Origin: Candidatus Woesearchaeota archaeon
Lineage (GTDB): Archaea > Nanobdellota > Nanobdellia > Woesearchaeales > ARS49
Length of the DNA: 64,000 bases
NCBI GenBank assembly: GCA_017609645.1
Contig: JAFCDQ010000001.1
Span: 515,718 to 579,717 of the forward strand
Reading direction: 5' to 3'
Shown: positions 11,373-40,703 of the stretch, piece after piece
How positions within the stretch are numbered: the stretch's first letter is position 1
Layout of the letters: every line of letters begins with the position of its first letter
The notes under the pieces: generated by a model
Databases searched by the model: none
What the model saw: the letters and a program-made list of their open reading frames with translations, nothing else
What the model was told of the DNA's origin: nothing
Program-made: the position numbers and the translations under genes

Positions 11373-11419
11373 TTTTACGTTACATTTTTAAAAGCTGAGC
11401 CTCCTTTCTAGAATTAACG

Positions 11420-11549
11420 CCGCTGTAGCTCAGTCTGGTTAGAGCGCCACATCATAAATGAGGCGAGGCTCATAGCTCTCTGGAAGCTAGACCTTCTACT
11501 TGAGAAGGAGATACGTGGAGGTTCACGGGTTCAAATCCCGTCAGCGGCA
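11420..11549 (+). tRNA. Interrupted tRNA, best candidate tRNA-Met(CAT), with a ~55-65 nt structured intervening sequence in the anticodon region
   Basis: GCCGCTG/CAGCGGC acceptor, D arm GCTC-AGTCTGGTTA-GAGC, T arm ACGGG-TTCAAAT-CCCGT; anticodon half-stems CCAC...GTGG separated by the insert; ATCATAA before the insert suggests CAT. Exact exon boundaries and anticodon not certain. Confidence 0.75.
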
Positions 11550-11663
11550 TTAGTTCTGTAATTCTTTTGACATGTCACTTTAGTGGCTTGTCCTGGCTTT
11601 AGCCAGGTGACAATCCCGCCGGCGGCATAACCTTTAAAAACAGCCTCATTTTAGCTTTATTGT

Positions 11664-12078: not shown

Positions 12079-12086
12079 TTTAAAAA
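12079..12086 (+). promoter_or_regulatory. Putative archaeal TATA box (TTTAAAAA) for the outer tRNA-Ser
   Basis: Centre lies ~29 bp upstream of the outer tRNA 5' end at 12112; equivalent TTTTAAAA elements precede the tRNAs at 6149 and 11420. Confidence 0.5.
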
Positions 12087-12111
12087 CCCTGAACTATTCC
12101 TTACAATTATT

Positions 12112-12481
12112 GCCGACGTCGCATACACAAAAATCCCTTTCGTGATTTTTGGTCGCGACTTCATCACTCACGATGTTCGTGCCGCAGTCGCATAATCTGG
12201 TATTGCGCTGGTCTTGAAAACCAGTTTCCGCAAGGATACAAGGAAATGCTAAGCATTTCCTGTACACAAAATCAAAGATTTTGTTATACAAGAAAAAATC
12301 CACTAAACAAAGCCGACGTCGCATAATCTGGTATTGCGCCGGTCTTGAATTATAAACAAGCTAACCGGTTTCCGCAAGGATATCCCGGTTCAAATCCGGG
12401 CGTCGGCGTCACAGGTGGATTTTTTTCTGTATACAAAATCAAAGATTTTGTTGTATCCCGGTTCAAATCCGGGCGTCGGCG
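12112..12481 (+). tRNA. Outer tRNA-Ser(TGA), interrupted twice: exons 12112-12125, 12195-12238, 12456-12481
   Basis: Joined exons give an 84-nt type II tRNA-Ser with GCCGACG/CGTCGGC acceptor, anticodon arm CTGGT-CTTGAAA-ACCAG, variable arm TTTCC-GCAA-GGATA, T arm CCCGG-TTCAAAT-CCGGG, discriminator G. Exon boundaries ambiguous by repeats (8 nt at site 1, TA at site 2). Confidence 0.65.
12312..12408 (+). tRNA. Inner tRNA-Ser(TGA) with a 13-nt anticodon-loop intron (12350-12362)
   Basis: Complete type II cloverleaf; anticodon arm CCGGT-CTTGAA[TTATAAACAAGCT]A-ACCGG; intron at canonical 37/38; mature length 84 nt. Confidence 0.9.
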
Positions 12482-12503
12482 TATTTTTCATTTAGGGGGT
12501 AAA

Positions 12504-40585: not shown

Positions 40586-40703
40586 CGGACCGGAAGGGAT
40601 TCGAACCCTCGACCACTCGGTTACTTCAGCAACCAAGTGCATCATATACATGACCTGGTGTGAAATAAAAGCCGAGTGCTCTACCAGGCTGAGCTACCGG
40701 TCC
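40586..40703 (-). tRNA. tRNA-Lys(TTT) with 44-nt intron (40622-40665)
   Basis: GGACCGG/CCGGTCC acceptor, anticodon arm CTCGG-CTTTTA[intron]A-CCGAG at canonical 37/38; T arm GAGGG-TTCGAAT-CCCTT. Confidence 0.93.

Follow-up and report, generated by a model that had tools for sequence, protein, structure and literature searches.

Serine tRNA genes nested within serine tRNA genes of the same anticodon in the archaeal order Woesearchaeales

Few known genes are as constrained as those for tRNA, and the disruptions described in them, by introns or in split, tri-split and permuted form, have shaped ideas on the origin of tRNA. In the multi-intron tRNA genes of archaea, BHB introns interrupt the tRNA body at several places, including the D, V and T arms (PMC4033280). 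The locus described here resembles these genes, in that the body is interrupted at several places and some outer copies carry BHB introns, but its insert holds a whole tRNA gene with the host's anticodon and has ends without a BHB. Split and permuted tRNAs (PMC3218864) likewise have the halves of one tRNA lying apart, with complementary extensions; here, however, the halves stand in cis, 217 nt apart, around an intact tRNA gene and with no BHB at their junction, unlike split tRNAs, whose junction carries the motif and whose halves are transcribed separately. Nor does the 3' half precede the 5' half, as in a permuted gene; the order is P-X-(PQ)-Y-Q, where P and Q are the 5' and 3' parts of the outer tRNA and X and Y are complementary arms. 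The tRNA-Thr of Caldiarchaeum, disrupted by a mobile element, has a 5' fragment placed before an intact same-anticodon copy, an arrangement attributed to integration, with a spacer of 1.8 kb that encodes a recombinase (PMC3293823). Such a fragment before an intact copy is common to both systems, but the spacers here are 70-220 nt long and code for no protein, and both outer halves enclose the tRNA. Finally, a C/D box sRNA is hosted in the intron of tRNA-Trp (mentioned in PMC3218864), again a non-coding RNA gene inside a tRNA gene, with the difference that the RNA hosted here is a tRNA of the host's own identity. A full-text search of open PMC papers on nested tRNA genes and on tRNA introns in DPANN and Woesearchaeota returned no tRNA gene inside another; novelty is likely rather than certain, and nested tRNA genes are apparently an undescribed way of building tRNA genes.

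The window analysed here is a stretch of 64,000 nucleotides of DNA from a small archaeon allied to Woesearchaeota, and its locus is a nested pair of tRNA-Ser(UGA) genes, the intact copy lying within an insert of the other. Read directly over 12090-12500, all on the plus strand, the locus consists of a 5'-end unit, P, hairpin units with the left arm, the inner tRNA, the right arm with the last hairpin unit, and Q, and direct and inverted repeats agree with every one of these pieces. A TATA-like box, TTTAAAAA, noticed in an earlier, sequence-only reading of this DNA, can be read at 12079-12086, about 29 nt before the 5'-end unit. That unit begins with a copy of the tRNA's initial 14 nt (GCCGACGTCGCATA, 12112-12125) and continues with the hairpin CAAAAATC...GATTTTTG and a spacer (12126-12180), as repeats and fold indicate. 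P runs from the acceptor 5' strand to the variable arm (12181-12238) and opens with the 5' end of the tRNA once more, in altered form (GCCGCAGTCGCATA, 12181-12194), while Q holds the T arm and acceptor 3' strand (12456-12481); both are recognised by reading, by repeats and by their pairing with each other. Between the variable arm and the T arm lies the insert of 217 nt (12239-12455), made up of TA-flanked hairpin units 1 (CAAGGAAATGC/GCATTTCCTG, 12239-12262) and 2 (ACAAAATCAAAGATTTTGT, 12265-12286), the left arm of a stem around the inner tRNA (CAAGAAAAAATCCAC, 12289-12303), the inner tRNA itself (12312-12408), the right arm of the stem (GTGGATTTTTTTCTG, 12415-12429), the arms being identified by repeats and by a pairing test, and hairpin unit 4, a copy of unit 2 by its repeats (12432-12453). 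The inner gene, which the earlier reading had placed intact in this gap, scores 46.7 bits against the Rfam tRNA model RF00005 (gathering score 29), one of five tRNAs in the whole window to reach that score, and contains a canonical 37/38 intron of 13 nt (12350-12362). The outer gene appears in the same search only as a weak partial match (12190-12224, 20.1 bits).

The sequence-only reading had assembled the outer gene from GCCGACGTCGCATA (12112-12125), ATCTGG...GGATA (12195-12238) and TCCCGG...GGCG (12456-12481). These pieces stand at those positions and join into a perfect 84-nt tRNA-Ser(UGA) whose stems have no mismatch, and the outer-specific U28-A42 pair, against C28-G42 in the inner copy, is present in the sequence. 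The 14 nt at 12112-12125 are, however, followed by the altered copy at 12181-12194, so that the continuous outer 5' part is 12181-12238. Joined from this start, the outer tRNA has two acceptor mismatches, with GCCGCAG mispairing with Q at positions 5 and 6.

The genome of 1.125 Mb in four contigs contains a second such locus. Searched with the window locus, it returned C1:294747-295043 (E 7e-53, 75% identity), where a tRNA-Ser(GCU) is nested in a tRNA-Ser(GCU) (L045, C1:294751-295041). The insertion point is the same (GGATA / insert / TCCCGG), and the order of hairpins is that of the window, with equivalents of units 1 and 2 and with changed arm sequences. Both acceptors are fully paired (outer GCCGGCG/CGCCGGC, inner GCCAGTG/CACTGGC), and the two pairs in which they differ are each changed on both sides. 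Against shuffled sequences the folding of the window locus has z = -11.2 and that of L045 z = -9.7, and in the predicted folds of both the cloverleaf parts of outer and inner copy appear together. With a homologous second locus and a fold of this strength, the arrangement in the window is far beyond chance. Two further serine tRNA genes of the genome are un-nested, tRNA-Ser(GGA) (L046) with a 5'-end unit upstream, itself preceded by a similar TTTAAAAA, and tRNA-Ser(CGA) (L047) with three 3'-end copies downstream.

Comparison with related genomes, which the earlier reading had proposed, was made by searches over 60 and 362 genomes of the order, after which candidate loci were read directly. Complete nested tRNA-Ser loci were found in at least eight further genomes, with the insert at the V/T site in G027 (L026), G202 (L113), G305 (L132), G103 (L210), G042 (L215) and G353 (L217), and in the T loop in G006 (L063) and G020 (L088); the last has three layers, the outermost acceptor being paired at 7/7 positions and the middle one at 6/7. 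Partial cases occur in G100 (L133), G043 (L131, L221) and G005 (L052). An exact insert pattern gave zero matches over genome contigs, after which a looser nested pattern was adopted. The pattern 'outer variable arm + insert + inner start', run over one genome for each of 85,488 species, matched five records, all of them Woesearchaeota or 'Nanoarchaeota' MAGs. A pattern for the Q side matched nine times in 8 of the 362 genomes, against one match for its reversed control, with one of the nine (L213) possibly due to chance, the remainder of its tRNA being absent on reading. A census with a D-loop pattern gave only one true case beyond chance, and the nested-locus patterns had no match in viral contigs, phages or plasmids. 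This recurrence across related genomes shows that the arrangement is genuine: nesting recurs in Woesearchaeales, and is neither a one-off nor an assembly error. Outer copies in the related genomes range from intact through damaged to remnants of the 5' and 3' ends. Of two genomes in one genus, G103 has a nested locus, while in G104 a lone tRNA is trailed by a surplus 3' part; within another genus, G027 is nested and G022 looks like an outer 5' part fused to an inner 3' part. Partial relics surround many other tRNA-Ser genes, which indicates that outer copies decay. Apart from this, the T-loop inserts of L063, L088 and L052 have in common a palindromic stretch, TGTCRGAAATTC...GAATTTCYGAGCA, whose centre is TATA-like, despite their different anticodons (GCU, GGA and CGA).

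Several regularities run through these loci. Within a locus the anticodon is identical in all layers, while between loci it is UGA, GCU, GGA or CGA; gene conversion, or selection for viability after insertion, could account for this. The inner gene always lies inside complementary arms whose sequences are unrelated between loci. Over 12 loci the duplex energies of arms with their own partners sum to -286.6 kcal/mol, against -131.1 +/- 18.2 kcal/mol with permuted partners, and 0 of 20,000 permutations did as well; the complementary extensions expected on the halves of a split tRNA are thus present, as arms X and Y. Between outer and inner copies, ten acceptor pairs are changed on both sides (two each in L045 and L210, three each in L026 and L113), and none is broken in these four loci; L217 shows the same by reading, its outer acceptor being paired at 7/7 positions and different from the inner copy, and the outer acceptor of L132 has one mismatch. 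The outer copies of L045, L026, L113, L210 and L215 have no stem defect. The ends of most V/T inserts are also alike: of the seven complete V/T-site loci tested, six (all but L026) read GGATACAA...TTGTATC(C/T), as does one partial copy; as RNA, the inserts start with UACAA and end with UUGUA in most loci, and their hairpin units are joined by UGUACA.

The sequence-only reading had the three outer pieces spliced together as exons, a claim that the splicing signals do not bear out. In a strict BHB test (a 4-bp helix, cut after two bulge nucleotides, with every equivalent cut site tried), ordinary introns often fit or nearly fit: the inner 37/38 intron is a strict BHB with CUUG/CAAG and 3-nt bulges, and fits or near fits were obtained for the tRNA-Ser(CGA) intron and for several introns in the D, anticodon and T loops of outer copies, with ordinary-looking BHB introns in those of L026 and L113. 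The single-copy tRNA-Ala of the rRNA operon (L170, G000:C4:84666-84721 and following bases) has a strict-BHB intron in its T loop, so this organism must be able to process introns at that site. No BHB was found at 12238/12456 (best H 3/4 bp, h = 0, three equivalent cut sites) or at 12125/12195 (best H 2/4, nine equivalent cut sites), where the 8-nt repeat GTCGCATA makes the proposed D-loop junction ambiguous over nine positions. Strict BHBs were likewise absent from all eight V/T inserts (seven complete nested loci and one partial copy), from three D-loop inserts, the window's included, and from two T-loop nested inserts, and a strict scan of the window locus gave, besides the inner intron, chance-like matches only. 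A candidate BHB, GGAU-ACAA-GG/A, was rejected; it would leave five extra nucleotides, falls just under the threshold in L045, and is absent among the matches in L113. The genome encodes one EndA splicing endonuclease (PF01974), a single-domain protein of 177 aa and alpha4 size, and alpha4-type EndA is known for strict BHB recognition. Joining of the outer exons is thus not supported by the known BHB signal, though it may still occur.

Units like 12112-12180, consisting of GCCNNCGTNGCAT, a hairpin and a spacer, directly precede intact tRNA-Ser genes at L046, L132 and L209, with a more degraded form at L018. Although the 14-mer, taken as an exon, would restore a perfect tRNA, it was set aside as a true exon, its junction having no BHB and such fragments preceding intact tRNAs elsewhere; with moderate confidence, 12112-12125 can be read as a displaced 5' end. 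The units (window 12112-12180; L046 251-318; L132; L209; L018) carry the first 14 nt of the tRNA and then a hairpin, and also hold a stretch complementary to the 5' strand of the D arm (GTCGC/GCGAC or GTGGC/GCCAC) that is conserved across families; in the window GTCGC (12119-12123) pairs with GCGAC (12155-12159). Upstream of a further tRNA gene of the genome (L164, about C2:109195-109285), part of that gene's 5' end is repeated (GGGCCTATAGCATACGCCC...), so such copies are not limited to tRNA-Ser.

The explanation that we favour, by a little over even chances, is that an older tRNA-Ser copy was opened by an insert carrying an intact isoacceptor copy, and that in the window the inner gene works while the outer one is no longer matured. 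An insert of small hairpins would have separated the variable arm of the older copy from its T arm, the second, intact copy, of the same anticodon, occupying the loop of one hairpin. In favour of this stand the second nested locus of the genome and those of other genomes, outer exons that join into intact tRNAs, the pairing of enclosing arms with their own partners, the one single-domain EndA, BHBs at many ordinary introns but at no V/T insert, and the signs of decay around other tRNA-Ser genes and in G104. The anatomy, its recurrence, the locus-specific pairing of arms and halves and the lack of a BHB at the insert are observed, whereas we infer co-transcription, the order of processing and which copy is used: a single promoter upstream of 12112 probably transcribes the entire locus, and the inner tRNA would be the working product, freed at its ends by RNase P and tRNase Z, with a single splicing step by the alpha4-size EndA at the 13-nt intron. 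The outer parts, P and Q, would stay in leader and trailer, where the X:Y stem would keep them together. That the outer copy of the window is probably not matured follows from the mispairing of its continuous 5' end with Q and from junctions without an EndA signal; the structurally intact outer copies of sister loci may still be processed. Against this explanation, the five outer copies free of stem defects are more than would be expected had they long been useless, and BHB introns in two of them (L026 and L113) are odd for a dead gene.

In a second reading, possible though clearly less probable, both copies are functional. Either the insert would be removed, or the inner tRNA would be cut out first and the outer halves, held by X:Y, joined in the manner of a cis-encoded split tRNA, by a BHB-independent route or an unrecognised signal, such as the UACAA...UGUACA...UUGUA hairpin module. 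Pointing this way are the outer copies that are free of stem defects and have acceptor pairs with two-sided changes, a locus-specific X:Y pairing that would bring the outer halves together, insert ends common to most V/T loci, and the folding together of outer and inner cloverleaf parts over the whole locus. This reading has against it that no V/T insert or twin-hairpin D-loop insert has a BHB while EndA is of alpha4 size, that the inserts were never found in a tRNA lacking an adjacent intact copy, and that the window's outer copy keeps its two acceptor mismatches unless the 12112 fragment is spliced on too. A tentative form of this reading has one transcript yielding two tRNA-Ser, the nested inner one and an outer one rejoined after BHB-independent removal of the hairpin insert with its conserved UACAA, UGUACA and UUGUA; if true, it would define a new class of tRNA intervening sequence, one that hosts a tRNA.

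An unlikely reading takes the insert for a small DNA element with TA sites in tRNA-Ser as its target and a same-anticodon replacement tRNA as its cargo; selection for viability would then explain the matching anticodons in every layer. Such an element would suit the TA...TA that flanks hairpin units at V/T and D-loop sites, the CA...TG ends of these units, the anticodon common to all layers, and the sparse distribution of the Q-side matches. The sequences of the hairpin units, however, are unrelated between genomes, and the window's genome (G000) has the units nowhere outside its two nested loci, an argument against a simple mobile repeat and our reason for rejecting a dispersed MITE. G202 shows elsewhere only two looser, A/T-rich palindromes, and the D-loop unit of L131 still pairs although its TA has become TG/CA. 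Neither the dispersed copies nor the linked recombinase of a mobile element were found, the genome holding only the second nested locus; there is no linked transposase and no match in the viral, phage and plasmid collections.

Plain tandem duplication and decay, with the nested look accidental, was the main alternative named by the sequence-only reading and is improbable. Many tRNA genes here are indeed flanked by partial copies of their own ends, but the idea is too simple, since wherever the nested locus is complete, each outer half still pairs with its counterpart rather than with the inner gene. Decay of a tandem copy does not yield P-X-(PQ)-Y-Q with P:Q pairing across the inner gene and enclosing arms whose complementarity is locus-specific, nor the same arrangement at the same two sites in several families. 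An assembly artefact can practically be dismissed, for although the window comes from a draft assembly of four contigs, the same anatomy is seen at two loci of this genome and in assemblies made independently in other studies.

A tRNA gene that sits inside its own isoacceptor, in layers and at fixed sites, and does so repeatedly across one archaeal order, is a further kind of tRNA gene arrangement. If the outer copy is matured, a BHB-independent route of tRNA joining exists; if it is not, the loci record the renewal of a tRNA from inside and the decay of its predecessor to surrounding 5' and 3' fragments, a record that bears directly on a possible origin of split tRNAs. There is also a warning for annotation, in that standard scans report the inner gene only.

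Two minor observations concern other tRNA genes of this genome. Downstream of many of them (Ala, Leu, Arg, Thr, Ser and others) lies a unit of 60-80 nt (window 11550-11627; L047, L050, L154, L155, L162, L167, L168 and L169), consisting of a hairpin such as CCTGGCTTTAGCCAGG, then GTGGNAATCC, and then a copy of the tRNA's own 3' end. The upstream half of the unit has two recurring versions, GACATGTCACTTTAGTG... and CAACAGTCGACCGCAGGGAGACATA..., and the units may represent tiny integrated elements of one family, or else a conserved 3' RNA structure. In the window itself, 11419-11549 and 40586-40703 are tRNA genes with long introns (131 and 118 nt in total) that ARAGORN missed and Rfam found.
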